Origin: Perkinsus chesapeaki
Lineage: Eukaryota; Perkinsozoa; Perkinsida; Perkinsidae
Reading direction: 5' to 3'
Assembly: GCA_013115145.1 (NCBI GenBank)
Contig: JAAPAO010000207.1
Span: forward strand, 1 to 48,382
DNA length: 48,382 nt
A program made the position numbers and the translations under genes. How positions within the stretch are numbered: position 1 is the stretch's first letter; each line of letters begins with the position of its first letter. The notes beneath the pieces were generated by a model. It did not search any database, was not told where the DNA came from, and was given only the letters and a program-made list of their open reading frames with translations. This document shows, piece after piece, positions 5,615 through 47,850 of the stretch.

Positions 5615-7095
5615 CTACGGCATCGGCAAAGTGCTCATCTTCGAGCCTCCTCCTACTATAGAGGGATGGAGGCCCGACTCGGCTCCTGGTGGGGCCGCTA
5701 GGGATCTTGTCCAGGGACCGCTCGCCATTAAATTCGCCGGCGATGCGTTGGCACCTCCTAAAGAAGATTAATAATGCAATACTAGGTCTTCGTGACGAAG
5801 CGGCGAAGCTCGTTCAGCTGTTATTTTGCTCGTTGTTAGTTCGTCATCACACGCGTAGTGCTTTGGAGGTGCGAGCGAATGATCAAATCGCGCGGAAACG
5901 ATTTAGAGAAGTCGTGGGTTCGAATCTCACAGGCCGCATTTTCCGTCAAATAATGTTTTTGGTAGCTTTCAAAAAATTACTAATTTTCTTGGCATCCCCA
6001 GAGGGAGGGGAGTCTTTTCGTCTACAGGTCATCAGCCAGTTCGCTCTGGTTAACGAGAAATAATTCGTGCGCACGCACGCACGGCGAAATGATCCATCTC
6101 CAGATAATAAGCTCCGCTCGCTTCGCTTGCTCCGCAATTAATCTTACCCAACAGATATCATCTTTTACATATCTTTTTCACATTTAAGTTTTCTCTTTTA
6201 TTCCGAAGAAAGACAAATTTTCCCAACTTTTTCGAAATTTTATAAAATTTTCCGAAAAGAAAGCAATTTTCCTCGTTTTCCCCGCAAGACTCACCCATGC
6301 CTTGAATGCGGATTTCCTGATGCCGCAATTGCCTCTCCTGCTCGCTCAAAAGCAGCTGAGCTTCTCGGAGCTCCCCTGAGATGCAAGCGTCAACCTAAGA
6401 TACCTCGAAAATGCTCTTTACGTTGCAACTGCGTATTGTCCTGAGCAAGGTGATTCGTCGATACAACCAGCTCTTGAAGCTTAGAGTGATACCTGATGCA
6501 CACACAATTTCGCGGCGCGTGACTGTCCACAGCTTTCCAGGTGTTCCTACAAACACAGTGCGAGCGAGAGACGTAATAGCGAACGTAATACGATGTTCCT
6601 CTTTTGATAAATAAAGCGCGAATAACTCCAAATGATACCATCTCCCTGGCCGGTGCACGAGAATCCCGGGAGATTTCTCCAAAAAGGCGACAGTGCTTCA
6701 CCCGACAAGCGACTTGAAGATGACATACCTATCGCTCAAGATTCTCACTTGCAATCCTACTTTGATTGGAACAAAACATCCTATACGAACTAATGTAGAT
6801 TTCATCAAATCAGCCGATCGGTAGTCACACGGACGCTGGAGGCTTTCTCGCCTGCCACTCATGATATCTAGTGCGGGTCTATCCGAGAGCGCTTATGAAC
6901 CATATACGCTCTTTGGCGACGAAATAATTTTTGTCAATTTTCGAGGGATTACACAACAGTTGGAGTCGACCAAGTACTCCACAAATGAGCCTTCGGCTCC
7001 AGAAACCTACTGAAGCACGAAAATTATCACCATTTGACCCAGGGGCTTCGGCCACCTTCGAGGCTCGGGGCGTTAGAAGTTTTCTCCACCCGGAG
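5615..7095 (-). CDS. coiled-coil protein, 3' exons resolved, 5' end uncertain
   Basis: Three consecutive exons join in phase: 6404-6492, 6295-6375 and 5615-5757 (stop TAG 5615-5617). The first two give a charged heptad-like segment (KLQELVVSTNHLAQDNTQLQ, then ELREAQLLLSEQERQLRHQE). The last encodes a Gly/Ser/Pro-rich tail ending STLPMP. Splice sites are GTATCT, GTGAGT and CTCAG/TTTAG. A likely upstream exon near 7025-7095 reads LLTPRASKVAEAPGSNGDN before a GTAGGT donor, but the link is not proven. The gene lies downstream of and co-oriented with the histidine kinase gene, whose tail is also coiled coil; a shared transcript is unlikely because that gene has its own stop at 7254. Its last intron contains a T-arm motif at 5917. 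Function unknown. Confidence 0.5.
5758..6294 (-). repeat. intron with tRNA T-arm motif (antisense)
   Basis: GTGGGTTCGAATCTCAC at about 5915-5931 on the plus strand folds as a 5-bp T stem with a 7-nt loop. It is followed by AGGCCGCATTTT, like an acceptor 3' strand plus T-run. No complete tRNA could be built upstream. Confidence 0.5.
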
Positions 7096-7253: not shown

Positions 7254-10200
7254 TCACCATTCTAGCTCCAGCTGCAAATGTCTACAATCTTGCTGAGTGA
7301 GTAGCAACTCCTGATAGACCTCTTGAGAGGCTCCCCCTCCACCAACCGGGGAGCCTGCCATGCCCATACCACCACCAAACATGCCTCCGCCGCACTGCTG
7401 GAGCATCATATCCTGAAAAAAAGACGAAACACTTCAATCACAAATTTCAAGACGTTTCCAAATAGAATGAATTTTTTCATATCGATACACACATACAGCT
7501 CCATCCAGCCTGACAAGATCCTTGTGACCAAAAGTTCGAGCGCTTTCCCCACGACGAGGTATAGTAAGGAATTTGACAGGAAATTTTTGTCAGTCGTGCG
7601 GAGAAGAAGCATTAAGTACGTCGCGCATGCGCAGCGCAAGAGCGAAGTTTCTTCAAATACACACATTTTGAAGACCTTCATTTTTAACACCGTCATTTTC
7701 GGTACCTTTTTCGAGACTCGTATTTCTAATTCGGCGTAGTTTTGAGATCGTCGTTTCTGGGCGCAGCGGTTATTTCTGATTCTGATCAGCTCATTTTTCG
7801 CCCGAAACGCTTGAAATACTCGTCGAACGAGCGAGCAGCTTCCGAAGGTTTGCTCGAATGATGACTATAGGGCGAATTTCGCAAGAGAATGATAGGAAAT
7901 GCTCGAAAATGGTTCGTGAAAGTCAGGTAAACTTTACACGAAATTTGACATGTGCTGTAAAGAAAAAAATAGCACCCAAAATAACAGAGCCCAGATAGCT
8001 CAGTTGGGAGAGCGCCAGACTGAAGATCTGGAGGTCCTCAGTTCGATCCTGGGTCTGGGCATTTTCATTAAATACTCTTCAAACCTCATATCTGCCTTTA
8101 CTACGTGATACTCTACAACGAATTCACGTCTCTCGAGACGCGTCTCGCCACCACTGAACCGCTACGTCGCACTCGACTCGAGTATCCTCTCATTTCTCCC
8201 CAATTTAGAATATCAGATTTTCCTACAACCTATAGCCCAACGCTGGAGGATGCACTTCTCGGGATTCTCATAATCTCCTCCAAAACTGAAACCGGTTATT
8301 TGTTTTTCTATTAACAATCATCCCTGTCATTTATCACTCTATAACTCCTGTCAAATAATTTTCTTGCTCACCTTCTGAACTATATCCGACTTCAACTTCG
8401 CAATCTCCCTCGTGAGTCCTCCGATATCAATATCGCCGCTCTGCAATAGACACCATAAATTCATCGACGAGAGCTATATGTGCTCAGTCTCCAGAGACGA
8501 GAAGTATTCAGGGTTTCACAAGAAGTATCGGAGAATCTTATTATCAATAATATCGATCCAATTAATAATATATTGATAATAATTCATTATCCATCGTCCA
8601 GTCTTTAGTGGATCGGTCTATCTGGTTTAATGGATCCTGCGACACCTCAAGAAGAGGTTTTGATGTCGTCGGCCCTTGAAAATAATGCAAGTGCTGGATT
8701 AATAGGAAGAAGGTTAGTTGTGGGATGAGCAGTATGATCCATATTAGGTTTTTTGTATGACAGCAATATTCTTAGTATTATGCGGAATACGTCCCCGTCG
8801 AAAAACATTCATGAATGTTAGTTCAGAAATAAATTCGTAAAATACATTTACATTTCATACCAACTTTTCTTCAAAAATACTCGCTGATGCGGCTTTTGCT
8901 AATAATGAATACGAACATGCAAAATTTGATAGAAAATATGTTTCTAATAAAACATCTCTTTTGCGAACATCCAATATTCCTCCTCACCTGGAACCTCGCC
9001 ATCTGTGTGTTTAACTCGGTTATAGTTTGATTCGCTGCACGGATCTCCGCGTCTTTCGCCATCAGTTGCTGCTGCTGCATCATCACATCCATCCCACCGA
9101 CACCTAAACATCACGCTCGTTACCGACTTGAGAAAAAATTCTACCGCGTCGTCGTAGCTACTATACTGGATTTTACCCCAAGTAAAAAAGTCATAATAAT
9201 TTTATAACGGGTAGTATGGATAGTGCAAAGGCTGGCGTATCTCCGAGCTAGACACTTTTAGGGCAGAGGTGTGACGGGGATCAGCAGAGCTAGAAATCTG
9301 CACGCATGCGCTCATGGACAGGAAACAACCAATGGGCATAACTTGTACTACAACAATTTCAGTTATTCATTTAATGTGTCTGGTAAGAAGAAGTTGATAA
9401 TAGTCTGATATATTTCACTAAATATGAAATTCTGGCACGAGCCACTTGAAGGATGCGATGTAAACAGATCGACGGTGTAACACTTGACATTGGTTCATAC
9501 ATCACCATTGCTCCTATCAGTGCACGAGCTGGATTCGTTCGTCGCCGAGAAAAGAAAAAATTCCCCACGGCAGTAAAATGGATATTCCGTGAGTATTGCG
9601 CTGCGCATCAGAAGACCCCAGGTTCGATCCCCGCACCCTGCACCTACCCATCGGATTTGAAGCCAACATGCTCATCCTGGATACCGTCGAAAACGCATCA
9701 GCCGAAGCGCCGGGTGCAGCAGCTCCCGCGCCAAGCGTCATCTGAAAACCCTAATTTCCGACCACCAAAAACCCGGGTTTTCTGTTGCCCACTTTTTGCT
9801 GTTGCACAAACATCATCAACGTCGTATACTGACTCGCCAACTGATCCACAACTTGTTGAATGGACGCCATCTCATCAGCGAGCTCAACGAAATTCGGGGG
9901 ACCGCCTGCGTTGAGAAAATGCAAGATTGCAAGATTTCCGCTTACCCTCGCCCTCTGGGATCTCTCCTGATGCTATCCCAACTGCCTGTATGACATCCTC
10001 TAGGATAGCCGCCATCGATTCACCCTGCTCGGCAGTCAGGCCCATCCGCTGCCCTGAGGGAAAATCTATGCGGTGCGGTCGTTGTGGAATCTTCCGGATG
10101 AGCAAAATCTTCAGGGTGCGCACTTGAGTATATCTTGTCGAGTGTCGGATAGGAAATATCATAGAACAGTCAAAATATATTTTATGAAAAGTAATATTAT

Positions 10201-13200
10201 TAATTATATTAATATTAGTTATTCAATAATTACCGCCAGTTGTTGATTAATACAATTTAAAACAAACAAGAAAAAATATTTGACGCATCGAAGAGGAGGG
10301 ATCACTTCTTGATTCTAACAGTAACATTTTCCGCCGGTTTTCCCATTATATTGTGAGGAGGTAGCAAAATGCCATAGTCCATTCCCCATCTCAAAAAAAT
10401 GACACTCCACATGGCAAAATTTTCCCGGAAAATTTTCCCCAAAATTTTCCTCACCTGTAGCCGAGTCCGTCATGACATTCGCCCGCTGAGCAATCCTATT
10501 GCAGATTCTCAACGACGAGTTCGCAACATCAACAACACTGCACGCACTCGTCATCTCGCTCGCAAGACTCTGTAGCTGCTCACAAACCGGCGGCACCAAA
10601 TTAGCTGACAATGAAAAGCGCGCGCCCGAGTGATCGATTTGCTATTAAAGCCGAAGAACGTACCGGAGCCTTCCTTGGGACCGCCGATGGCCGCAGCGAG
10701 GGAATCAAGAATGCACTCAATTGGCTCGGCGATTGACAGCAGCGCTGTCGGGTAGACCTGGAAAATAAGGTAGATAATTATAAAATATTAAAAGGAAATA
10801 TTATACTACCTATACAAAGGTAATATATATATTAACTTTATAGTAAAAAAATAAAATAAAAGTAAATCTGATGGTGAATTGTAAATCTAAGAGAATTCGA
10901 CAAGTGAATGAAGAACTAAGAAAGAAGGAATGAAGAATTTCGTCCGGTAGGTAAAGTGGTGTGAAAACATAGGTCTCTGTGATGAACAAAAAATCGGAAT
11001 TTTTACCATCAAGTTGAATTCTTCGTGCCACGGACCTTGGCATGAAACGGTTGATCGATTTAGAAAATATTACTGAGTAAGCTTGAAAAAAATAAAAATA
11101 AAATTAAAACTGACAGACCGGGGGCGTATTTTCAAGCAATTAAAACGGAAGAGTCATCTACAATCTCCGATGTTACTCGGTAGCGAAGAATCTTCGAAGG
11201 AGGAGAAGAAAAATAATGGTGATGCGGAGGAGAGAGGGGATAAACTAAATTATTATACACGAAAAATCCTGAATTCCTCATGAAAACTTTCCAAAATTTC
11301 CAAAAAAACTAAATTTTCAAGAAAGTTTCCTGAATTTTATGAAAATTCTCCAAATTTCCTTTACCATAAGAAAACATCAATGCGTTCCTTCTGGGCATAC
11401 TAACATCATCTGATCATCATTCGCCTTCACCATTTCAATACCAAATTAGTAAGACCCGAGAATTCGGTCTCGGTTTTACTTAAATAGGTCCGGAAACGGT
11501 GTAGTTCGAATGCTTCTCACCCTCTTAGAAAAAATTTTAAAAAATCTTCGTAAATTTTCCAAAAATCTCCCAGACTTTGCGAGAATTTCGTAAATTTTCT
11601 TAAAATTCCCAAAATTCTCCTCTTCCTCTAATTCGGATCCTTCTCACCTTCCCCTTGGTCTTCAATTCAGTTTCCAACATACTAGTCTCATCGCTGGTCC
11701 CTTTCATTATTTTAATACGATATTCCAATTCTTTAACTTGATATTCGAACTCGGCAACAGCGTCAGCACCAGAGCCTCCGCCACCGTGACCTAGCAAAAC
11801 CCACATACATCAATCCCGCACAGGTTCGATCCCGGCGGCGACCTACTTCCGGCGAGACCGTTCATTAAGGTTATGTCGAGCATGCTGGACTTGAATTGGG
11901 ACAAGTCTTCTTCAACAGATTCTTTCATCAAGAAGGTCTTTACTCCCCTGAAGGAAAAATTTCATTTTTAGGAAAAATCCCCGAAAGCTTTACGGGAAAA
12001 ATTCCAGGAAGCCGCATTTCTTCGGAACATCGACCAGCAAAGGAATGTATGAGAGCGAATCAGAATGTCAAAATCGATCACGTGATCGATCGACCAAACC
12101 TGCCTACCCTTGTCCTGATTCGTTCGCTCCCAACGTTCCTCGTTCTTCAAACTCATACAGACCGGATCCTTCATATCTATCAATTCGTAATCGAAAGGTC
12201 CCCGGTTCGATCCCCGCGGCCTACTCTTTATCAATTTCCACTTTAGTTGTTTCAGTGCAGTGAACATGGTTACCGACACCCGTGATGGCCATGTGTTTGG
12301 CGAGGTCGACGGTTTCGCCGAAGAACGAGTAACAGGGCATCGTACGACCACCACCAACAATAAGACCACCGTAAGAGAGCCTGAAATTGACATTGCTAAA
12401 TTCTGCGAGCTTATCGATTCTTCCTGGAGCAATCCTCGTTAAGGAATTTCGCGTTCGCTCTCTTATCCCAAAAATCCCAGATTTTTCCCTTTTTCACGGA
12501 AATTTTCCGAGATTTTCTATTTTTTCACAAGAAGGCCAGATTTTTCTCTTTTTCACGGAAATTTTCCGAAATTTTCTTTTTTTCCACAAGAATGCCAGGA
12601 TTTTCCCTTCCCTCCTCTGAAAGGAAAAGAGTCCGATTCTGCCCAATCCTTACCCAGTTGCGACGCCAATCAAAAATTCAACACTCTTGCCGACAACGTT
12701 AATATTCGACTGAGCCAGCCCCGAGAGAACGTCCTTCGCATAGGAGAGAATCTTCTCAACATGGTCCTCTTGTCGATCATGTCCACATACAACCAGTACA
12801 CCAGCACCGTCCATATCGACCTGAAATGATAATCGATCACGTGATCGATTTGATTTCCCACCTTAAAGATGTCATGCGCCTTAAGAAATAAATCGAACGC
12901 AGTTGTCATTTTATTCAGCAGGACGCACAATTGCGAAATCGGCACGATTTGCTGAATGATATCAAACTCCTTCATCATCCCGTACAAGAATGTCACGCTT
13001 TCGAACTTGTTGGCAACCAAACTGCCCTCGTCTGAAAGAAAAATACTTACAAATTAATTACATTAAAATGCCCTCGCCGCGGATCGAACCCGCGACCTCC
13101 TACTTTGCCTGATGCTCGCTAGAACGTTTTGCGGAAGAGTTCTTTGCATCATCTCGTTGGTCACTTTCTTCTCAAAATTTATATCTTCCATCAACTTCCT

Positions 13201-16200
13201 CACCACCAACGCGTGAATCTAAACGCATCCGTCAGGAATCGAACCCACGCCCTCCCGATTGAAAGGCAAACACTATCCCCACCTTAGTTGCCAGTTCTTC
13301 CTTCTCCGCAGGTCGCTGGATAATGTCGTTCGCTAATCGCTTAACCGCCTCTAATCGACCAGCCGGCGTCAGCTCATGTGTTATCATAATCTGAAATGCA
13401 CCCTCCCGGGATCGAACCAGGGACTTTTCGCTTACCACAGGGAGCGACGGGTGAAACTCTCGTCGGATTATATCGAGGACTTCATATCCTGTCATCCCTC
13501 CAACCGACTGTGTTGTCATGCTCGCCGATATCATCAGCATGTCCGGCAACGCGTGGCTCTCCAAGTTCTCGATGCAGTCATAACCGTCCAGACTCCTTTT
13601 GTACTCGAAGCCCGCCTCCTCTGACATGGATGCCTCAATTCGGAGTTGCCTCTTCAATACCAAATCCAACGCATTCGAACTTATTTCTTTCACCGAATTA
13701 ATACTTCCAATCGCTAACCACCATCAGGGCGCTCAAGTACAGCGCCGAAGCGGTCATCGACGGAAACGGTCGATCGATTTCTAACACCCGGCCAGCTTAA
13801 TAGGCACCCGCTTCACGGAAGAAGTTTAGTTCCATGAGAACGATTATAAAATATATCCGTATCACTTCGCTTCCATGCAAGTACGAGCCCGTGCTCTCTT
13901 AGATATGCTGCAACGAACAATCTCGGGAAGAGTCAATCCGATTGACCAGCCATCGCCAGAAAAATGCCGACGGGTTCTCGGCGAGGCCAACCAGGCCAAT
14001 CCCGAAATGAAACTTACTGTCCAGAATACTCTCCAGCGCCTCGTGGTTCTTAACCTCGTCATCACAGTAAAGCACTCTAATCGTGCCAGATTCGGCCAGC
14101 CTCCTCAAAGCTTCCTCCTGGATGGTAACTTCACCTTCATCATCATCAGCATCGCCCTCACTAGCAACTGAGTCAACAACATGTCCGTCTTTCATGCGAG
14201 CGACCCAGGTTCAATCCCCGGTCTCACCATCTGTTTTTCCTTCATCGTCCCCTTCTGCTGCCGCTGTCAGTAATGCCTTGCTTGCTGTGGAGTGCCGCTT
14301 GGACATGCGCGAATCTGAGCAATCCCGTATCGATCACGTGATCGATTTAGACCTCGCAACATCTTCACCCAAAAAAACTCTATCGAGAACGCCAATATTT
14401 TCGAAATTTTCTTGCGACTGTCTCCATGGCCCCGCAGGCTCAACGGCACCACGCGGAATTACGTGGCGCGCGGTTTACACAACAAATGCACTAGATTTAT
14501 CTTCATCGTAGTTTTGGCAACATCGATGTCAAACTGACGGGAGCGTAGTTAGCAACAGCAACTCGTTTTCCGGCAGCCACACAAAATTGCCAAAGGAAAA
14601 TGCTCAGTTCGGATTTTTCACAATCCAACCCACCCGAAAGCATCTAGCGCATCGATCACAGCATATGCCACTCACTCCGGACATTTGCATTTTCGCAAAC
14701 TTACTCTCCATCTGCGCCGTCTGGAATGCCGAACCAAAGCTCGCATGCTTGTTGCCCGCATCCTGGGCCCCTCCAGCCTCCTTCACTTCGTCTGCGATAC
14801 GTTGAGGAAGTCGAACGTAGAACTGCGAACCTGAAGATAGAATCTCCGAAGGGGATCCGACCACGTAAGGTGAGAAAATATTTAAGGGAAAATCAGAATT
14901 ATTTACAGAAAAAATCAGAATTATTTACAGAAAAAGTCAGAATTATTTACGGAAAAAGTCAGAATTATTTACGGAAAAAGTCAGAATTATTTACGGAAAA
15001 AGTCAGAATTATTTACGGAAAAAATTTCAGACTTTTTTGCAAGAGTAGCAAAGTGTGAGATTTCTGAGGGTCTGACACAAAATCTTCACAGTGCATAAAA
15101 GTATCTTTCGAAAATCTCCACAGTGCACAAAAGTATCTTTCGAAAATCTTCACAGTGCACAAAGGTATCTTTCGGAAATCTTCACAGTGCGCAAAGGTAT
15201 CTTTCGGAAATCCTCACAATGCGCAAAAGTATCCTACCTTTTCCAAGCTCGGATTCGACCCATATCTTCCCGCCATGCAGCTCAGTTACTTTCGTACAGA
15301 TAGCCAATCCCAAACCCTAAAGACAAAAAATCTCCCGGGTGCGCAAAGATATTTTTCCTCGATTGTAAGCTTCAAAATATCGTCTTTATACAAGGCAAGC
15401 GAATCCTACTAACCCTTCCCTAGTAGGAAATCTTTGTAAGGGAATCCCCACCAAAACTGCTTCACTGACTTCCCATCATTCGACTCCGATGTAAAAAGCG
15501 CGCGCCCGATTGATCGATTTCTTACCAAACCGCCGCCTTTCCCTTCCTCCTCCTGACCAAAAGCTTCGAAAATTTTCTTCAAGTTTTCCTTTTTGATTCC
15601 TTGTCCAGAATCCGACACGCAAAGAAGAATCGTGCCAGCCTCGGCTTCGAACTTGGAGCCAATTCGAACGAATCCTGATTAATTTAAAAATGCCGCCGCT
15701 GGGATTCGAACCTGCGACCTACCGGATGGCGTGAATTTGAGGGCGTTGTTGACCAGATTAAATACGACTTGAGAGAGCCGCTCTTTATCACCTTCGATGG
15801 TCTGAGTGGACCGCACTGTGAAGAATCTTTGGGAGTATCCTAGCTTACCGGCAGGTCCGAATCACATTCGATTTGAAGCTCGACTGATTCTTTCTTGATC
15901 TTCTTCCCGTTCTTGTCAACCGCCATGTTCATCAACTCCCAGACTTCCTCGCAGATTTCATTGCAATTAACGGTCTTCGTCAAATTCAATTGCATCTTGC
16001 CATCTCGGAGGGCGCTCACATCCATAATCATATTCACCAGTCCGACTAGTCTAACCTGTAGAGCGCTCGAGTTCACTGCGGGACACCCAGGTTCGAATCT
16101 TACTCCGCAGGAATTAATCATTTTTAGATGTTTTGTCCTCCCTTTGTTTTGCTCGGTCTTGATCAACGCGTCCGACAAACCGATGATTCCATTAAGAGGA

Positions 16201-17958
16201 GTACCTTAACAAATAGAAATATGTGTATCTTTTCCCCTCCAAAATGCACGCTTCAACCTACGAAGCTCATGAGCCACTCCGGCTAAGAAGTCCTGCTGCT
16301 GCCTTTCCGCCATCTCTTGTTTCGTGAGATCTTTAATATGCGCCATTAAATAATAGTCCTGCGTGCCCGATTGCTCCGAGAGGTGATTAATGACGATTTC
16401 AACCTGTTAAACAACAGCGTATCTTTGCACGCGCGCACAAGTAACGCACGCGTAAGAATTTCGGCACGAAGCTCAGCCAGGTACGCACGCTCCTATCCGA
16501 ACGTATTGAACATCCGATAAAGCGTTATCTTCGTTTTTAAACTAAATGATAGTTGAGCGTTCTTGATGCCTCATACGGCGCAACATTTTCATGAAGAATG
16601 GCGGAGAGTATATCATCTTTAACCAGAATCATTGTGGCGTTAGTTGATCTATCTCCTACACCATTTCAAGAAATCAACGCGTGTCTCGTCGTTTACTTCT
16701 ACACTTGTCTTTTACTGACTTCATCAAGTCCACTAGGGCCGTGGTGGAGCTATGGAGTCGCCTGGCCGCCGTACTCCGGCCGCGAGCGGGAGAGAGAAAG
16801 GAAATTTCACAATGTACCGATTTGTTTTCAGCTTCCAATAATCAGGTCACGAAATCGTGAAGCACTGTACGAGCTGTGTAACTCATCCTAAGTTGTCCCT
16901 ATCGCCCCCTCTTCCGCAAAGTCATGCTAAATAGTCAGAGATAGACTCCCTATGTCACCCTCCGCGTGTGCTCTCAACTCTATCTGTTTGCTCATACCAC
17001 TTAGCCGGCAATTCGCGTTTAATAAGAAATACACTTCCTATGTCGTAGGACGTAACGATCTTGTCAGTCTTACCGATATGACGCTGCCGTCTTTCTTTTT
17101 AAGTTGCCCTTTGATTGGCTTCACAATCTTGCACACCGTAAAGGAGTTCTTCCTCCTCATCCCCTAAAGCTCAGAATTTCGTAAAACGGCAAAGTCAAGC
17201 TCCGACCTGAGATCGATTTGTATCTGTTTTCGATACGAATGAGTCAACGTGGCTCTGATGGTTTCCGGCGAACTCCTCTGGCATGAGCACCTTGCAAACG
17301 GCAGATTTAGTCAGACAACAGGAGGCTTCTTACCGATACGTTTTGGCCGATCAGTTCGGTCGCGATGTGGCCTGTTAAAATCTCTAAAGCTGCATTAGTG
17401 TGGATCTACAAAGACAATACAGCAAACCTCTACCGGTTAATTTAGCCCAAAGGTATTGCGCTCGACTAAAGAGCGAACAACCCATGGTTCGATTCTCAGA
17501 GCCTCGACCTTCATTTGAGAAATGTCCCATTTTCATCAAATCAATCCAGAATCGATTCCACCATCTTATTTCCCGTTTAGAAAGGAAGTGTGAGACTCTA
17601 CAAGTCTCAAACGACACGATAGTCTCCACTTGCCAAGTCCGTCCTCCCCATTCTGCCGTGCCGCACAAGTACTCCGCGAGTAGTTGGTCACCGCATCTTA
17701 TCGGCGCGTCGTTCACCCTTTAATTTCCGTCCCCCACACCTTACAATGTTCCCTTTTTTATCGGCCAGCACCATCATGTCAGTAAGATTCTCCATAAGCC
17801 CGCGGACACCATCCCAGAAGGGTCCGCTTGCCCCAGACATGGTTGGACAAATCTGTCGCGGTTTGGTGGAAACTTGCGCACTTCCAGACAAAATCGCACG
17901 CCAAATATCGATTAGATGGGCGCACGCTTTTTACAGCGCATCTTGTGGAATGCGACAT
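7254..17958 (-). CDS. PAS-histidine kinase-receiver-cyclase-homology fusion protein, ~32 exons
   Basis: This is a rebuilt gene of roughly 3.8 kb of coding sequence (about 1250 residues). Domains in order are PAS, HisKA, HATPase_c, degenerate receiver, degenerate class III nucleotide cyclase, then a coiled-coil tail. Nearly all joins are supported by reading phase and by continuous family patterns across the junctions; the domain entries give exon positions. The proposed start is the ATG at 17956-17958, which has an in-frame TAA upstream and gives MSHSTRCA before the next exon. An earlier start through further exons cannot be excluded. The stop is TGA at 7254-7256. One junction, between 14705 and about 14400, is unresolved. 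The overall order recalls Dictyostelium AcrA-type kinase/receiver/adenylyl cyclase fusions; the biochemical role here is inferred. The first codons face a divergent gene at 18203. Confidence 0.8.
7989..8061 (+). tRNA. tRNA-Phe(GAA)
   Basis: A complete cloverleaf. Acceptor 7989-7995 (GCCCAGA) pairs with 8054-8060 (TCTGGGC), discriminator A at 8061. The A box is TAGCTCAGTTGG. The anticodon stem CCAGA/TCTGG encloses CTGAAGA with anticodon GAA at 8022-8024. The T arm is GGTTCGATCC-like with a perfect stem, and ATTTTC follows as a short Pol III terminator. No tRNA intron. It lies in the intron 7413-8371 of the kinase gene, on the opposite strand. Confidence 0.97.
9104..9647 (-). repeat. intron with tRNA T-arm motif, antisense to the gene
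   Basis: GGTTCGATCCCCGC at 9621-9634 on the plus strand. The donor GTAGGTGCAG is the complement of the acceptor-side end of the tRNA-like piece. Exons on both sides join in phase. Confidence 0.75.
10605..10663 (-). repeat. intron with GCGCGCGCTTTT module
   Basis: Gene strand carries AATCGATCACTCGGGCGCGC then GCTTTTC at 10614-10640. It shares the AATCGATCA half-site with the palindromic introns. Confidence 0.85.
11791..11846 (-). repeat. 56-nt intron made largely of a tRNA 3' half, antisense
   Basis: GGTTCGATCCCGGCGGCGAC starts at 11823 on the plus strand; read on the gene strand the intron begins GTAGGTCGCC and ends GCTAG. Confidence 0.8.
11948..12107 (-). repeat. intron with ATCGATCACGTGATCGAT palindrome
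   Basis: The 18-nt perfect palindrome is at 12073-12090, about 17 nt from the donor GTAGGCAGG. Confidence 0.88.
12177..12224 (-). repeat. 48-nt intron with tRNA T arm, antisense
   Basis: GGTTCGATCCCCGCGGCC at 12204-12221. AATTGATA occurs both in the upstream exon end and at the 3' end of the intron, which could be a remnant target duplication. Confidence 0.8.
12821..12861 (-). repeat. 41-nt intron built around the same palindrome
   Basis: The palindrome (AATCGATCACGTGATCGATT) occupies 12831-12850, half of the intron. Donor GTGGGAAATC, acceptor CATTTCAG. The flanking cyclase exons join in phase. Confidence 0.9.
13032..13103 (-). repeat. 72-nt intron with tRNA 3' half, sense
   Basis: On the gene strand it begins GTAGGAGGTCGCGGGTTCGA, continues with an acceptor-like GGCGAGGGCA, then TTTT, and ends TTTCAG. 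The variable loop supplies the donor; the T-run follows as in a Pol III trailer. Confidence 0.85.
13219..13282 (-). repeat. 64-nt intron with tRNA 3' half, sense
   Basis: On the gene strand: GTGGGGATAG ... GGGTTCGATTCC (plus-strand 13235-13245) ... GGATGCGTTTAG. It includes what looks like a decayed anticodon-arm segment before the T arm. Confidence 0.8.
13391..13435 (-). repeat. 45-nt intron with tRNA T arm, sense
   Basis: Gene strand: GTAAGCGAAAAGTC, CTGGTTCGATCC at 13408-13419, then GGGTGCATTTCAG. Removing it joins LPV to IMITHE, the expected receiver strand. Confidence 0.88.
14168..14227 (-). repeat. 60-nt intron with tRNA 3' half, antisense
   Basis: GGTTCAATCC at 14209-14218 on the plus strand, one base off the TTCGA consensus. 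It is preceded by a decayed anticodon-arm-like stretch (GTCTTTCATGC) and followed by CCGGTCTCAC, which forms the donor on the other strand. Confidence 0.7.
14315..14352 (-). repeat. 38-nt intron built around the same palindrome
   Basis: Palindrome at 14329-14346. Donor GTCTAAATCG, acceptor TTGCTCAG. The downstream join is in phase; the upstream exon boundary is less certain. Confidence 0.75.
14893..15024. repeat. 22-bp tandem repeat, six copies, in an intron
   Basis: TCAGAATTATTTAC recurs at 14893, 14915, 14937, 14959, 14981 and 15003. Copies differ by A/G changes. It lies in the kinase intron 14831-15237. Confidence 0.95.
15089..15237. repeat. 32-bp tandem repeat, about 4.5 copies, in the same intron
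   Basis: CAGTGC(A/G)CAAA(A/G)GTATCTT recurs at 15089, 15121, 15153, 15185 and about 15217. Together with the 22-bp array it fills most of this intron. Confidence 0.95.
15317..15525 (-). repeat. intron with GCGCGCGCTTTTTA module
   Basis: Module at 15491-15520, sense to the gene, immediately after the donor. GGTTTG lies at both exon-intron edges, a possible target duplication. Confidence 0.8.
15675..15722 (-). repeat. 48-nt intron with tRNA 3' end plus T-run, sense
   Basis: Gene strand: GTAGGTCGCAGGTTCGAATC, then an acceptor-like GCGGCGGCA, then ATTTTTAAATTAATCAG. Splicing joins TPSG to FVRIGS in the kinase ATP-binding domain. Confidence 0.88.
16055..16403 (-). other. HisKA dimerisation/phosphoacceptor domain exons
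   Basis: Exons 16262-16403 and 16104-16204 join through a phase-1 intron to give an intact H box, [16 protein letters not shown], with the phosphoacceptor His. The next exon begins at 16055 and continues [20 protein letters not shown], the usual second helix of the dimerisation domain (canonical IxxILDxSKIExGK). Confidence 0.9.
16056..16103 (-). repeat. 48-nt intron with tRNA 3' half, antisense
   Basis: GGTTCGAATC at 16090-16099 on the plus strand. Gene-strand donor GTAAGATTCGAACC uses the T arm itself; acceptor CTCTACAG. Splicing joins INSCG to VRLVGL. Confidence 0.85.
17074..17852 (-). other. PAS domain exons of the kinase fusion gene
   Basis: Exons 17745-17852, 17334-17405, 17207-17290 and 17074-17163 join in phase 0. 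They give a PAS pattern: VLADKKGNI, then [20 protein letters not shown], then [20 protein letters not shown], then [10 protein letters not shown]. The following exon (16262-16403) completes the fold with [11 protein letters not shown] and [13 protein letters not shown]. This matches PAS sensor modules that precede HisKA. The ligand cannot be deduced. The 670-nt intron 16404-17073 holds several shadow ORFs. Confidence 0.8.
17406..17744 (-). repeat. intron with tRNA 3' half, antisense
   Basis: GGTTCGATTC at 17486-17495 on the plus strand. Upstream, GCTCGACTAAAGAGC (about 17459-17473) forms a short anticodon-arm-like hairpin, so this piece keeps anticodon arm, variable loop, T arm and acceptor strand. 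Confidence 0.7.
17853..17934 (-). repeat. intron with the GCGC module in reverse orientation
   Basis: Plus-strand ATCGATTAGATGGGCGCACG then CTTTTTAC at 17907-17934. On the gene strand the donor is GTAAAAAGCG, so the module is inserted in the opposite orientation to 15491-15520. Confidence 0.7.
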
Positions 17959-26482: not shown

Positions 26483-27768
26483 TTATTTTACATCTTCATT
26501 TTTCATTTGCAGATCATCATGCTTTTCTATCAACACTCTTCGACCGCCCTCAGAGGCACTGCCGTTCTCGTTCGCAATGGCGCCGACCTGGACTCCTTTA
26601 ATCGCTGTCACCACCGCCTCCGGATTTTTTTCGATTTTTGCATCAGAATCGAAACTTGTTGCCAGCCCCTCGTTCTTGACAATGTAAGGAATGGATTCTA
26701 CGTTATCCAACGCCAGATGGTAAATCCTGGACGAATACGCCCAAAGCTCGCTCAGCTCCGCGTCCCTCCCGATAAAGAGGACCGCCGTCAAGATATGAAC
26801 CAACATTACACCAGCTGAAACTTTGATTCTTCGCTTGGATCTAGAGCTCTTTACCAGCAGATGCAGGTCCTCACACACACCGTGCAAAGATGCCATTGCA
26901 TTACAGAACGGCCCCATAAGCTTTCTAAGCAACAGGAGGGTGATGGGCCCCAAAGAGTGACGATCGTATACGGACTTGAAGAGGAGGAAGAGACCAAGGG
27001 TAATAGCATTTGTTATTATTGTTGAGAGAGAGCTAGCTGGCACCGACGCGAAGAATCCTGTTAAAAACACCGGTGCCGGGAATCGAACCAGGGCGCCTGC
27101 AGCTGCACATACCATGCCAAGAAGCAACAACACCGGTGGTGGGGCGGCAACGTCGACGAACGGATCGATGCTCGTAACTGTTCGCGGTCTGGATGGGTCG
27201 ACCACGCCAACCAGGATGGACCAGAGAAAACAGATGGCGAGAAGTAGAAGGCATGATTTCACATTGCAACCCTTCTTCTCATAAAACGGACGAAAAATGT
27301 ACCATCGATCCTCGGCACTTGACGGTTTCAAAAACATAATCATGATCACCCCGATAGAATATATGCCACCAAGATAGACCGGCGCCCATCGGCCATCAGC
27401 GACCAAACCATCTAGTAGTGTGACGTACTGAGACAGGCAGGCTACAACAGCTAAGCAGGCGGCGCCTCGGACGGGAAGTTCCGTGACCGGGGACGCTGCA
27501 GCTCTGGCGATGAGCGTTGGGGTGGAATCGTCATCGGATAGATCAACCGGGGAAGTAGAAGCCCAAAGGAAGACGCTGGAAAGATTCAACAGGACGAGCA
27601 CCTGCGACAACCAAGTCGCTTGCCACGCGCTCACCATGAGACTCACCCAGAACCACGCCGTTGGCGAACTGGCTGCACTCGGACCGATGAAACAGGCAGT
27701 GACTGCCTCAGTGCACATAGCATGGAGCGCTGCTGGCAACCAGCTAGGGGCAGATGATAACTCCAGTG
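26483..27768 (-). CDS. polytopic membrane protein, unknown function (main exon)
   Basis: A long open frame encodes about eight or nine hydrophobic segments (for example AWFWVSLMVSAWQATWL, YLGGIYSIGVIMIMFL, LLLLAICFLWSILVGVV, AGVMLVHILTAVLFIG). A hydrophilic acidic C-terminus ends QMKNEDVK. The exon opens after a TTTTTTCAG acceptor at 27769; the first ATG inside is at 27718. Upstream exons probably supply the N-terminus (see 27805-28330). I do not recognise the transporter family. The frame contains a tRNA T-arm-like stretch at 27062-27100 that resembles the intron modules elsewhere, yet removing it as an intron breaks the frame. Confidence 0.65.
27062..27100 (-). repeat. tRNA T-arm-like motif inside a coding frame
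   Basis: Gene strand: GGCGCCCTGGTTCGATTCCC then GGCACCGGTGTTTTTAACAG, preceded by a GTATGT donor-like site. Excision of this 55-nt piece would shift the frame into a stop, so it seems to be translated (GALVRFPAPVF). Confidence 0.6.
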
Positions 27769-29538: not shown

Positions 29539-30064
29539 TCCTGGAAACGCGTATCAAAAATTAGTATTTTTTTCCGAGTTTCTGAAATAGACTATTACTG
29601 GTAGGTAATAAACCCACAGTTGGATGCTCGCCAGGTGTCATCCGGAGCCCAAAACACTTTCAGCAGCAGTGGTGTAGCTGGCGAGGGGGCGGTAGCCCTC
29701 CCTGCAGCGGTGCTCGCCCCCACGCTGGCAAGTATGGGTGCTGTGGGGTATGGGTTTTGGGGACAGTAATTGACCCTTAGCGGTGTGGGTCCGCCCCCAC
29801 CTTGCCCTCCCCCACTGTCAAGTATTCAGCAGTGTCAGATCCACACACTGTGAAAACCCGGAGTTAAAAATATCGAAATAATTATGTACAGTAACAATAG
29901 TATAAGTAATAATTTCGCGCATCTGCAGAAGAAGAGGCCGTTGTTCTTCCCGGGCAGTTGATCGACACAATCTGTCCCCCTCAGTTGCAGCGGCAAAATA
30001 TCAATTGACTTCGGGATCGCCTGGAGCTAGGTGTCCATTATCGCTCGACAAGATTTTAAAGCAA
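29539..30064. other. stretch with no resolved exon
   Basis: It may be an intron or intergenic DNA between the acidic exons and the chromodomain gene. Nothing specific recognised. Confidence 0.35.
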
Positions 30065-32191
30065 TCAAGGTTGGCATATAGATTCCAATACTTCCCATGA
30101 AACCGTAAGATTCCTACTAGTAGCTTTCCCAGATTCTTCAGAGTGCGCAGCCGCCTCAACTTGACCTACAAGATACCAATCTGCCCCACTACACCCTATC
30201 CACCTACCTTCCTTCGACGCTCCCTCCAGATTTTGATTCTCCGAATCCTTGTTCGTCGACCTGTTGCTCCTCGGCACAATCAAATAAGCTTGCTTCTGCC
30301 GACACTGCCTACACGTAAAAAGCGCTCGCCATCTTGATCGATTCATAAATGATTATTACTCTAACTCAGCAGGCTCCACACCTGTGAGGTTGGCCAGTGG
30401 CTCCCAGGTGTTATCAGCGGGTGGATAGTCCTTCCACTTCACCAGAAATTCTTCTCCTGAAAAGTTGATTTTTTGGCTAAGTTGCAAAACGTTTAAAATA
30501 CAGGCATAAGTTAGTACTCTCAATCGATAAACCTTGGATGCCATGTCCAGAAGGAGAACACTCGACGCTTTATTCGGGTCGAGGGACATATTTTATAACC
30601 ATTATTACTATAACTTTTATGCGGGCTTAATCTTATATATTATTGTTCATAACCTCATAAAATGATTCCGTCACCAGGGACACCTTACGCTTTCCCAGCA
30701 ACACAGTCCCGCGAGGCTTGTCTGGGGGCCCAACGCGGCCGACCTTGCCAAGACCGAACAACAACACTACTTCGGACGTGGTATTATCAAGAAGCAGACC
30801 CTTCAACAAAGAGACTGGATCTTCATTACGAAGACAACGATATAAACCAAATATATTATGATAGAAAAATATAATTAAACATATTAACTGGGATTCGAAC
30901 CTTCAACCCTGATTGCGCACAAAACGAGCGCAAATCTTCAACGTGCCATAATTTCTGCCGCGGTCATCACGGACGGTAAGCTATACAGTTCCGAGCTCCT
31001 TAAACGCCGGATAGTTCAAATCCATCGTGAATGTGCCGTGTCTTAAATCCCATTCCAGCCCCGTCTCCGATCACCTATATGATGTATAGAAATATTGATA
31101 TTAGGATTTACTAATAAGAAATATAAGAATGGCAAATTAACATGTCGTTGAGTATTGTACAGGCACGAAGCAGCAGTAAGTCCGATATATTAAAACCAGA
31201 ATCTATCTCAAAATGAAAGCAAATAATTAAACCGATATTAATAATAATTGTAATCCAACCCTTCAACAGTTTACAGCTATCGTTTACCACGTGAAGCAGT
31301 GTACTTTAATAACAAATCATTCCCCAAAATAATAAGTCCCTTAGCCCGCCCAAGCTACTACTTTTTCCGACCATCCTGACATCCAGCAGGCACTCCACCT
31401 CGTATTCCTGATCCTCATCTTCCTCCTCATCTCCATCCAGATCTTGAGCCTCGGCCCGCCGAGCTGCATTATTACGATAAATATAGTTCTTACGGTAATT
31501 TCTGAGCAGAAAAAATTCCCATTGAAAATTTCAATTTTTTACTTCAATTTTGAGATCGCGGTTTGATTTCCAGTTACGTTCTCCAGACGGATCCACCAGT
31601 TCTCCAAAGGCCCAGCACTCCCGATTTTGCCGGTAATCAAATACTGCTCCTCCTTCTGCTCAACACGATAATCGCTGACACTGTGAACGCTCTTCACGCC
31701 GATTTCCTTCGACAACACCGGGAAGTTCGCTTTCGCTTCGCTCGGAGTCGGCGATTCTACCGACTGAAAAGACAAAGATTTTTTAATGCCATTAACGTCT
31801 CCTTACTATCGTAGAGTTCGACTACCCCCAGGTTTTCAGACACTTTTTGCGCCACATCTTGAACGTTACTTATATGACCATTTCCGCAAGTGTCTACTAT
31901 TGAGAAATTTTCAAACAGAGACTATCAACAGACTCTTCAAAACCGATACGAACAACAAACGTTTGCCCTTAAGCCTCCCGAGGGAATAGTACATCTCCAT
32001 TTCTTTCAGGGGCCTCCACGGCGACCTTCTTCTGTGGTCGAGTGTCAATAGAAGTTGACACACGACGCTTCTTCGGCGAGGCCGTCGTATTTCTACCTGA
32101 GCAGGTTCCATAAAATTCCTCATTTTTTCGATTTTTTACCTGTTTGGGAATTGCCCTCCTTGGCGGCCTTGGCACGGTGTGATGCACACAT
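30065..32191 (-). CDS. double chromodomain protein (HP1/CDY-like organisation)
   Basis: Exons 32140-32191, 31993-32096, 31543-31763, 31362-31501, 30360-30456, 30208-30308 and 30118-30165 join in phase. Reading through the last donor reaches TGA at 30065. The linker is basic (ASPKKRRVSTS). Chromodomain 1: VHSVSDYRVEQKEEQYLITG, then NWWIRLENVTG. An acidic run (DLDGDEEEDEDQ) precedes chromodomain 2: EYEVECLLDVRMV, then EEFLVKWKDYPPADNTWEPL. The second domain keeps the aromatic positions expected for methyl-lysine binding; the first is diverged. The protein likely reads histone marks in the nucleus. The ATG at 32191 is the latest possible start: the frame is open upstream (WRVNISSTAQAYIEASKWFL), so the exons at 32343-32790 may be its 5' end. 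Introns carry a T-arm module and a GCGC module. Confidence 0.78.
30309..30359 (-). repeat. 51-nt intron with GCGC module
   Basis: Gene strand AATCGATCAAGATGGCGAGC then GCTTTTTAC at 30315-30343, a diverged copy of the module in the kinase gene. Splicing here converts an apparent stop (GAGTAA) into an intron donor. Confidence 0.75.
30457..31361 (-). repeat. 905-nt intron with tRNA 3' half, sense
   Basis: Gene-strand GAAGGTTCGAATCCCAGT at about 30887-30904. It is preceded by TTGCGCTCGTTTTGTGCGCA, an anticodon-arm-like hairpin with a 5-6 bp stem. Confidence 0.7.
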
Positions 32192-32342
32192 TCCTAGGAA
32201 CCATTTCGAAGCTTCAATATACGCCTGAGCAGTTGAAGAAATATTCACGCGCCACGAAATGGGTGTGGGATAATAGAACCGAACTTATATATTTTCAGGT
32301 GGTCGGCTATTCTTAACTTCGCAGAAATGAAATTTTCGGCAT

Positions 32343-32790
32343 CTAACAGACTTTAAGCGTTACTGGAAGAACCACACTGAACATTAAGAGCCTTATTAAT
32401 ATTATAGGAAGCCACTGAAAAGTTGGCTGGTCAGTTACCTGAAAATTATTATTACTAAATTGATAGTCTTGGGCATTTGTTAATTAATAAATAGATTAAT
32501 AATATTACCAGTGCGTCACTGTTACCTGTTCAAAGGGATAGTTCGGGACTTTGACTCCACTTAATATTGTATCATTTGTATTATCACGTTTGGTCGGAGA
32601 GGCGACCTTGTTCGGGAGAGGAAATATGTTTATAGTATTTCCATATTTGGCCATCCATTGGTTAGCTTCAAAGTCGAAGCTGACTCCAACTAAGGCCTAA
32701 AATATCTTTTTTCAAGCTTAATGCGGGCTTCAAGTTAGGATACTATCTTACCTTGGAAATATTGTCGATTCTATCCCTCGATAACGACAT
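32343..32790 (-). CDS. small spliced ORF or 5' exons of the chromodomain gene
   Basis: Exons 32752-32790 (ATG), 32526-32696 and 32343-32438 join in phase 0. The central exon reads LVGVSFDFEANQWMAKYG and looks like a short beta-strand module, with weak similarity to AP2-type DNA-binding domains of alveolates. As a stand-alone gene it ends at TAG 32343 (101 residues). The last exon in that frame is hydrophobic and less convincing; another frame (SYNINKALNVQCGSS) would lead into the chromodomain gene. The two models cannot be separated by reading alone. Confidence 0.4.
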
Positions 32791-40829: not shown

Positions 40830-42912
40830 GTTATGCATGGTGACATGCGAAGATATCAAAGTGTGAGTGCTTTCCCATTCGGTGTGGGATAATGTGGTAT
40901 CTTAGCTCCACGCATACATCTGGCCTTGTGAGAATGTGTTATTCGAGGCCAGAAAAGTGTTACTTGGGCAGTGCTACGATGGAAGGCGTTTCAGGGAATA
41001 TGCTCCCATCGCGAGGAATGACTTCTCGGTCGTTGTCTCATTGCCGTTATCAAAGTTGACAGCTCGTCGCTCATCGGTCTTCTGTAACCGTTTTTATACT
41101 TGGATAGCGTTCTGCTGCACCTTTTTGAACTGTCAAATCTGATGCTAACTTCTCTCTATCGCTCTTCAGGTCACTTGCCCCTCCGATACTCTCAGTAAAG
41201 TCTTCACAGCTTTGCTGATAATAATTTCGACAGCTCTAGTCGGTCTAGCAACCTAGTAAGAATCCTTTCTCGATGCTAGTTACCGTATCTTTCCAGTTTG
41301 GTACTAGTACCACCAACGAGAACCGCTGCCCTGCTGGCATCGGCAAGCTCCCTGAAGGGCAGCACGAGAAAGACCCTCAACAGGCTTTTCGGCAGCGTGA
41401 GAAAATAAGTAAAGAACATGTGCAGCGATTGTTGATCAACAGAAGATGTGTTTTGTGTTTCACTGGAAGTTCGGGCGAGAAAGAGATAAAAAATGCTCTC
41501 TGCCAAACGAAACACTAACACGTCTCGAGTCAGAACTTTGAGCAAGATATGGGCAATTATAAGAAGGCGGTTTACTGCCAACGAGTTGCGTCCGTGATGC
41601 CAATAAAACTTGTGTGATACGCTCTCTCTTTTGAACGTCGAAGGGAACCTTACGGCACCGTGTGATCCCTCCGAGGGATGGCAGGACAACTCAGAGTAAA
41701 GTGCGTTTGGCACGCCGTGAAGGCTGATGTTTTGATCGATTGACAAACTGAAACCCAATACTGATATATAAAAGATGATTCAGCTATCTCTGGCTGCCAA
41801 AGGTTACAGTCTTAAACGAGCTGCGATAAAAACTTCTCTCAAAACTACTAGTAAATAGTTAAGAGTTGAGAAGGGAAAATTTTACTTGAAGAAACAAGCG
41901 CATCTCGTCGTCGTCCCTGTCGCGTGGCCACCAACACATTTACCGAATACGCGGCTGTTGGGGTACCTCTCGCAGACACTTCCCTCATACAAAGAAGCGC
42001 AGAACATATCACCTCCACCACATTCGACATGAGGTTTAGTTGGCTCAGCAGTAGTAGGTACTGGAGTCGTAGTGTTGTAAGGACTCGGAGTGGTTGTTAC
42101 CGGCTCGGTCGGGCAGGGGGTTGTTGTAGGGCAAGGCGGTTGAGTGGGACAAGGTGTAGTCGTGGGACACGGTGGGTAAGTGCTTGAAGTGGTAGTCGTA
42201 GTTGTATTGGTAGTTGCCGTTGTAGTCGTAGGACAAGGCGGTTCAGTAGTTGTGGTGGTTTTAGGCTGAGGTGGGCAAGGTGTAGTTGTAGGGCACGGTG
42301 GGTAAGTGCTTGAAGTGGTAGTCGTGGTAGTTGTGGTAGTTGTGGTAGTCGTGGTAGTCGTGGTAGTTGTGGTAGTCGTGGTAGTCGTGGTAGTCGTGGT
42401 AGTTGTGGTAGTCGTCGTTTTCGTTGTTGTGGTAGTTTTAGGCTGAGTTGGACAAGGTGTAGTTGTGGGGCACGGCGGGTTAGTGCTCGAAGGGGTAGTC
42501 GTAGTTGTGGTCGTGGTTGCCTTTGTAGTAGTTGTAGTCGTAGGGCAAGGTGGTTGAGTTGTAGTCGTCGTGGTCTGGGGCTCGCAACTCGGAGTGGTTG
42601 TCGTCGGCCCGGCGCAATCACATCGGATGACTCTGGTATCCTTAGAATCCAGAAGTTTGCAAACTCGTCCCGCGGGGTCAAACTGGTAGCCCTTGCAGTA
42701 GGAACCGTAACCTATTTTCTCCACACAGAGCGCATCGCCGCAGAGGGGCTCGTTGGGAATGACACCAGCGGTAACAAAAGTGTTGGACACAGCAACAAAA
42801 GCGGTAACAGCGACGGCCTTATAGAGCATTGGGACGACTCTACTAGTAGAAGAGATAAAACGAGACGCTTGGGAGGGGGGGGGTGAGGGCGAATGAGACG
42901 CGACGCGAACTT
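40830..42912. repeat. tandem duplication unit 1 (gene plus flank)
   Basis: Shared markers with unit 2 include GTGTGGGATAAT at about 40881 and 42983, ATGCTAGTTACCGTATCTTT at 41273 and 43348, and TTCTCTCAAAACTACTAGTA at about 41834 and 43920. The unit holds one mucin-like gene and about 1 kb of its 3' flank. Confidence 0.9.
41882..42829 (-). CDS. secreted mucin-like Thr-rich protein with two six-Cys modules, copy 1
   Basis: The ATG at 42827-42829 (MLYKAVAVTAFVAV) is preferred because it opens a signal peptide matching copy 2; the frame is open farther upstream. The product is 315 residues. An N-terminal module has six Cys (CGDALC, SYC or KGYQ-type loop, RVC, RCDC). A long linker is almost only Thr and Pro with PPCPTTTPCP units, a likely heavily O-glycosylated stalk. 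A C-terminal module has six Cys (ECGGGDMFC, SVCERYP, KCVGG, RCAC). No membrane anchor is seen, so it is probably a surface or extracellular mucin-like protein. Long antisense and shifted ORFs here are products of the repeat. Confidence 0.88.
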   Translation of the reverse strand: MLYKAVAVTAFVAVSNTFVTAGVIPNEPLCGDALCVEKIGYGSYCKGYQFDPAGRVCKLLDSKDTRVIRCDCAGPTTTTPSCEPQTTTTTTQPPCPTTTTTTKATTTTTTTTPSSTNPPCPTTTPCPTQPKTTTTTKTTTTTTTTTTTTTTTTTTTTTTTTTTTTTTTTTTTSSTYPPCPTTTPCPPQPKTTTTTEPPCPTTTTATTNTTTTTTSSTYPPCPTTTPCPTQPPCPTTTPCPTEPVTTTPSPYNTTTPVPTTAEPTKPHVECGGGDMFCASLYEGSVCERYPNSRVFGKCVGGHATGTTTRCACFFK

Positions 42913-42921
42913 GGGAGTTCT

Positions 42922-47779: not shown

Positions 47780-47850
47780 GGAAAAATACGGAGAAATGGA
47801 ACGACCGGGGATCGAACCGGCGACTTCGGAGACGAATCTGACCGCGGAGG
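47780..47850 (-). repeat. 5'-UTR intron end with tRNA 3' half, sense
   Basis: Gene strand: GTCGCCGGTTCGATCCCCGG, then TCGTTCCA, a T-rich tract and TTTTTCCAG at 47780, 31 bp before the ATG of the carrier gene. The donor end was not fixed. Confidence 0.65.

Follow-up and report, generated by a model that had tools for sequence, protein, structure and literature searches.

tRNA-derived SINEs are dispersed short repeats that carry a B box and a T-run. The repeated element described here, from the clam parasite Perkinsus chesapeaki, has the B box and T-run in common with them but is only ~36 nt long, without a clear A box or a shared 3' tail; it resembles tRNA genes and pseudogenes along linear columns 42-73, but no cloverleaf was detected in it and its T-stem is unpaired. 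Introners, according to the main text of a 2022 survey (Gozashti et al. 2022, PMC9860276), are many similar introns at unrelated sites, with splice sites that lie at or near their ends or come from the target site; family median lengths run from 30 to 654 nt, most introners were traced to DNA transposons, and one family was without a transposition signature. The words tRNA, SINE and Perkinsus are absent from that main text, and among the open-literature matches listed, no title or abstract opening presented a tRNA-based introner. The non-canonical introners of Amoebophrya, a related lineage, likewise comprise many repeated introns, but are described as having inverted repeats and non-GT-AG ends (PMC7789003), whereas the introns of the kinase gene treated below are all GT-AG.

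The window, i.e., the whole 48,382-nt stretch of DNA that was analysed, contains a kinase gene in which the initial annotation had proposed that many introns are made of tRNA 3' halves. We consider that these T-arm introns probably form one old, diversified introner-like family, and a tRNA-like, Pol III-type ancestry is the best reading of its sequence. The family shares with the surveyed introners (PMC9860276) the occurrence of many similar introns at unrelated sites; it differs from them, as they are described there, in a body that resembles a tRNA 3' end plus a Pol III-type T-run, in being spliced in both orientations, in a variable 4-nt block, and in showing no excess of target duplication.

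T-arm introns of the kinase gene

A protein search returned FOL47_003452, a predicted hypothetical protein of Perkinsus chesapeaki from NCBI, whose model was built independently of this analysis. All 1289 residues map exactly onto the window, with 32 introns, and GT-AG ends are found in 32 of 32. The T-arm motif is present in 11 introns (four sense, seven antisense), and six further introns carry AATCGATCA. The initial annotation had counted about 31 introns in the gene; the stretch 9104-17744 contains 27 of the 32, ten of them with the motif. All ten sites that the initial annotation listed exist and lie within introns by exact protein mapping: GGTTCGANNCC is exact at six (9621, 11823, 12204, 13235, 13408, and 15702) and one base off at four (13080, 14208, 16090, and 17486), with four sense and six antisense relative to the gene. 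Over the whole window, ten exact GGTTCGANNCC sequences occur versus 0.44 expected, the maximum in 100 shuffles being three. Of the 17 FOL47_003452 introns of at most 75 nt, 8 carry the motif.

Intron predictions were also obtained with a gene finder trained on protein-kinase exons (Pfam PF00069) and three intronless window genes, with no T-arm knowledge given. Its models of splice sites and of length were, however, refined with introns that it had itself predicted in the kinase loci and in the window, so that some T-arm introns contributed to them. With this motif-blind procedure, a 25-exon model was obtained at 17840-11476, nine of whose 24 introns contained the T-arm motif; among the 23 introns of the window's three remaining multi-exon models, none did.

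The introns described here are on the minus strand, with antisense cores on the plus strand, and each is given by both the gene finder and protein mapping unless otherwise indicated. The 339-nt intron 17406..17744 contains a weak antisense element (core 17476-17511; GGTTCGATTCT, one base off; 6.0 bits), and the 48-nt intron 16056..16103, whose flanking exons fall within a single HisKA match, contains a weak antisense core at 16080-16115 (2.2 bits), the last twelve bases of which are exonic. The 48-nt intron 15675..15722 is itself a sense element (core 15687-15722; GTAGGTCGCAGGTTCGA..GGCATTTTT..CAG; 46.8 bits) flanked by exons within a single HATPase_c match; the 45-nt intron 13391..13435 (core 13393-13428; 39.6 bits) is another, its flanking exons lying within a single Response_reg match. 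Between these is the 60-nt intron 14168..14227, with an antisense core at 14198-14233 (last six bases exonic; 15.3 bits). Sense cores are found at 13220-13255 (32.1 bits) in the 64-nt intron 13219..13282 and at 13065-13100 (44.9 bits) in the 72-nt intron 13032..13103. The 48-nt intron 12177..12224 is an antisense element (core 12194-12229, last five bases exonic; 33.5 bits) placed by protein mapping; the gene finder fused it into a longer intron, and its flanking exons lie within a single Guanylate_cyc match. The 56-nt intron 11791..11846 has an antisense core at 11813-11848 (last two bases exonic; 13.5 bits), and the 544-nt intron 9104..9647, placed by protein mapping beyond the gene-finder model, has one at its donor end (9611-9646; 23.1 bits). 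The eleventh motif, at 5917, is in the last intron (5758..6294, 537 nt, protein mapping), where the element (5907-5942, plus strand; 33.9 bits) lies inside a dispersed repeat of ~390 bp; counting this copy, that repeat (window 5780-6140) matches 18 places in the genome, several of them partially.

Against the family matrix, the four sense copies among the ten span 32-47 bits and the six antisense copies fall from 33.5 to 2.2, scores that are somewhat inflated for window copies that had entered the matrix. The copies at 17476 and 16080 are weak members of the family because they reach only 6.0 and 2.2 bits, respectively. A P. olseni protein is colinear with FOL47_003452 over the T-arm junctions to residue 844, apart from one missing or extra residue (a one-residue gap) near the junction at residue 437, and has one additional residue at junction 1078 and two near junction 1242; a P. 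marinus protein covers the junctions to residue 623 and has the same one-residue gap near 437. The gene also holds an intact tRNA-Phe gene (7989-8061), antisense within the 959-nt intron 7413-8371.

Outside the kinase gene, the motifs annotated at 30887 and 47811 are indeed present. The weaker element 30876..30911 (minus strand; 22.9 bits) straddles an exon edge predicted in the gene model 29882-32790, and that at 47793..47828 (minus strand; 35.1 bits) is immediately upstream of a mitochondrial carrier ORF recognised by a Pfam match. A strong element at 27064..27099 (minus strand; 36.6 bits) lies within an open reading frame and was called exon by the gene finder; the adjoining GTATGT and TTTTTAACAG could form a candidate 55-nt intron, and an intron may have been missed there.

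A second intron-associated family, AATCGATCANNNNGGCGNGCGCTTTT, has 202 occurrences genome-wide when two mismatches are allowed, compared with 0 for the control, and its N block varies in a subfamily-like manner; exact copies lie in window introns at 15494-15519, 10614-10639, and 30318-30343. The palindrome AATCGATCACGTGATCGAT, half of which also opens AATCGATCANNNNGGCGNGCGCTTTT, is found within three other introns (window 11948-12107, 12821-12861, and 14315-14704). Because both AATCGATCANNNNGGCGNGCGCTTTT copies and the palindrome are in introns, the genome may hold several intron-forming families. Elsewhere in the window (41882-45289), two similar ORFs of 345 and 439 aa have a signal-like start in common and no Pfam match.

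The repeated unit and its copies across the genome

The unit shared by the copies is ~36 nt long, RRAGGTCGYRGG-TTCGA-NYCC-YRG-NNNN-GGYA-TTTT, and is in register with tRNA positions 42-73, followed by the T-run. In 115 non-tRNA copies, of which 91 are exact and 24 are one mismatch away (12 copies called tRNA by ARAGORN were left out of this and the column analysis), conservation spans positions -10 to roughly +26 relative to the motif and fades beyond. Similarity between copies is mostly confined to ~40 nt; leaving aside overlapping windows and the 390-bp repeat, none of the alignments listed is longer than 52 nt. Across the genome (35.4 Mb), GGTTCGANNCC occurs 1877 times versus 287 for the reversed control, and the T-arm with an exactly spaced TTTT occurs 520, 1457, and 3037 times at zero, one, and two mismatches, versus 0, 42, and 826 for the reversed controls. 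The ratios of these counts imply that each site departs in ~12% of copies, which extrapolates to a family of roughly 2,700 copies, some real tRNAs included. Copies are clustered, 29 of 93 listed places having a neighbour within 3 kb versus 7.3 expected (the set being the 100 listed copies minus six tRNA genes and one other copy, C94). No source element for the T-arm family was found.

When the gene finder was applied to 106 copies outside the window, in loci picked for holding a copy and mostly on the first contigs rather than sampled at random, 48 fell in introns, 5 in exons, and 53 in neither, versus 205, 256, and 420 of 881 control positions (Fisher: intron versus exon, 3.2e-11; intron versus the rest, 3.2e-6). 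In the loci sampled, the copies are thus enriched in introns, in agreement with the initial annotation. Among the 48 predicted T-arm introns, the unit makes up most of the intron in 32, as these are only 38-71 nt long (median 48 in each orientation); the other 16 are 82-380 nt. Sense outnumber antisense 34 to 14 because selection required the T-run, compared with 4 to 7 in the kinase gene, and one GC donor was seen among the short ones. Good splice sites at both ends (score of at least 8) accompany 60 of 115 copies, compared with 11.4 when the flanks are shuffled. The pattern GTANGTCGYRGGTTCGANNCC (the GTARGTCG loci) occurs at 27 places; ten of the 16 examined are predicted introns, all sense, of which nine measure 39-51 nt and the tenth 281 nt, and the other six loci have no gene model.

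The position matrix gives 20-45 bits for family copies (5th-95th percentile, leave-one-out; lowest 11). In two intron sets from loci not selected for copies, both limited to introns of at most 120 nt, the element was found in 0 of 60 and 1 of 79, and the remaining 138 of the 139 entries scored -11 bits or less; with overlapping loci merged, the sets reduce to 57 and 73 distinct introns, and the element is in 1 of 130. At element loci, 36 of 175 introns reach at least 16 bits, and another two score from 0 to 8 bits. The kinase gene is an extreme case of T-arm intron load, given these frequencies of 1/130 and 36/175. Exons joined across a T-arm junction fell within one Pfam match in 4 of 10 cases tried (L069, L070, L208, and L215); among the same ten, there was no match for the P4-ATPase, L089, and L182, and matches for L056, L195, and L198 were weak or did not span the junction. 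Overall, as in introners, similar intron sequences are found at many unrelated gene positions, and the boundaries of element and intron nearly coincide.

Resemblance to tRNA

The description of these introns as tRNA 3' halves stands in part, as a resemblance. Across 23 freely varying columns, the family correlates with the tRNA columns in register at r 0.717 (the top of 5000 permutations was 0.515), and the four positions that directly follow base 73 each have T in 58-69% of 89 fragments that had been picked for GGTTCGANNCC alone. T-stem bases 49-51/63-65 are paired in 163 of 345 cells. A shift by one or two columns gives 105-147, and in an ARAGORN tRNA catalogue 188 of 189 are paired, partly by construction because ARAGORN selected that catalogue. 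Relative to shuffling of the 115 copies, none of the three pairs was significantly above expectation, and the 49-65 pair was lower (39/115 versus 48.3); the commonest 49/65 combination in the first 50 copies is G49/G65. Rfam returned no tRNA in the kinase region or at 20 element loci (E up to 10 and 5), and no cloverleaf was detected; weak matches were obtained to tmRNA (four, at 9.7-12.5 bits, of which two cover 13 T-arm bases) and to a plastid tRNA-like 5' UTR (one, at 13396). The B box is present and an upstream A box is in no clear excess (4/50 versus 2.4 shuffled), and no conserved RNA fold was evident in the 36-mers (mean z -0.18). Split tRNA genes were considered as a source and dropped because the T-stem is unpaired.

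The acceptor ends vary as the initial annotation had stated, 92 being different among 100 listed copies, but its suggestion of repeated origin from several tRNAs was not supported: acceptor strands of only 8 of the 100 are in a tRNA catalogue that is incomplete, and 7 of those 8, which match over the whole 3' end, are the catalogue's own tRNA 3' ends. Rfam scored 63 of 3361 first-look candidates for the motif and gave a lower bound of 62 tRNAs. Positions 66-69 are nearly random, and conservation peaks in the B-box core, which was part of the selection pattern. The elements are thus not verbatim copies of the catalogued tRNAs, and matches to tRNAs outside this incomplete catalogue may exist; either the fold would already have been lost in the ancestor, or two halves would have been reshuffled. 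Columns in the 115 copies associate mostly with close neighbours on their own side of the loop, and 2 of the best 25 pairs span it, an unexpected pattern for a family spread by simple copying.

Origin of the T-arm introns

Removal from protein models, use of both orientations, copy number, and separation from other introns are directly supported. By contrast, we infer both that the T-arm introns were created by insertion and that they descend from a tRNA-like sequence of Pol III type in which the tRNA fold had already been lost. The element of ~36 nt is near the normal intron length of this genome, and therefore an inserted copy would itself be the intron. In the sense orientation, a GTAGG or GTAAG donor lies inside the segment corresponding to tRNA bases 42-47 or immediately ahead of it, and the T-run with the following AG supplies the acceptor; in the antisense orientation, the complement of the T-run gives a GTAAAA donor, or an altered end gives GTAGG. 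It is possible, although we put this forward only tentatively, that Pol III-type tRNA-like transcripts ended by a U-tract seeded ready-made introns. The donor would come from the tRNA variable region, and the terminator would serve both as acceptor and as polypyrimidine tract; in reverse, the terminator would supply the donor of the other orientation. This would constitute a tRNA-based introner class spliceable both ways.

The insertion event itself was not seen: target duplication in 40 T-arm introns was no higher than the AG/GT pattern of 107 ordinary ones, and terminal inverted repeats were not found (by eye, in the consensus only). Gain and loss were compared in one paralogue set, the P4-ATPases, with five exon pairs searched as protein. 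Paralogues C88a and C88b have a T-arm intron in common, C665 has at the same place a 42-nt intron without a recognisable T-arm, and the more distant C112 and C2 are without that intron. This pattern fits either decay in C665 of an element inserted long ago or a sequence change in an older intron. In a separate observation, the tandem P4-ATPase genes L214 and L219 are near-identical over the T-arm intron and the next exon and divergent upstream, as after gene conversion. Several further points count against the introner-like explanation: an unclean separation from other introns, with two kinase copies at 2.2 and 6.0 bits and two of 175 element-locus introns at 0 to 8 bits; the 53 of 106 copies assigned to neither introns nor exons; and the placement of the strong copy 27064 in an exon.

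Ordinary introns might instead have gained a selected linear motif in place, e.g., a TFIIIC-type B box plus terminator or a splicing signal, so that the copies reflect convergence and not copying. The unpaired T-stem, the nearly random positions 66-69, the better conservation of the B-box core (itself part of the selection pattern), the P4-ATPase intron position common to a paralogue without the motif, and a few intermediate matrix scores would all agree with this; however, a motif of such length and exact spacing, in both orientations, would be hard to reach convergently, just one of the 130 distinct comparison introns contains the element, and the copies at 20-45 bits are far removed from the 138 of 139 comparison entries at -11 bits or less. 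We regard it as unlikely. A more doubtful proposal is that the elements are true tRNA fragments or pseudogenes from many independent insertions of many tRNA genes. Such an origin would account for the column profile in register (r 0.717), the T-run directly after base 73, and the varied acceptor ends, but not for T-stem pairing at chance when the core departs by only ~12% per site; nor does it sit well with weak tmRNA T-arm matches in place of any Rfam tRNA match in the tested elements, with an unclear A-box excess (4/50 versus 2.4 shuffled), or with acceptor strands that go unmatched in the incomplete catalogue.

SINE-like elements that landed in pre-existing introns would explain the 390-bp dispersed repeat with its T-arm in the 537-nt last kinase intron, the 16 of 48 predicted T-arm introns of 82-380 nt, and the two kinase introns of 339 and 544 nt. 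The other 32 of 48, in contrast, have a median of 48 nt, near the 44-46 nt medians of the comparison introns (of at most 120 nt), whereas a 36-nt insert would give ~80 nt; such landing is unlikely for the short T-arm introns, and as an account of the copies we give it little credence. Chance matches and mis-annotated tRNA genes do contribute, in that ~15% of bare GGTTCGANNCC matches are expected by chance (287 of 1877) and 14 of 91 matches examined are tRNA genes, but for the family as a whole this explanation is refuted by the longer pattern (520 versus 0) and by the exact mapping of FOL47_003452.

Returning to the introner-like family, P. olseni and P. marinus proteins are in the databases, and gain or loss of its introns should therefore be checkable upon genome comparison. 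The origin of new introns is a long-standing question. Introns built on a Pol III-type body, and as small as a minimal intron, would point to a different source, and they would explain how a single sequence can be spliced in both directions.
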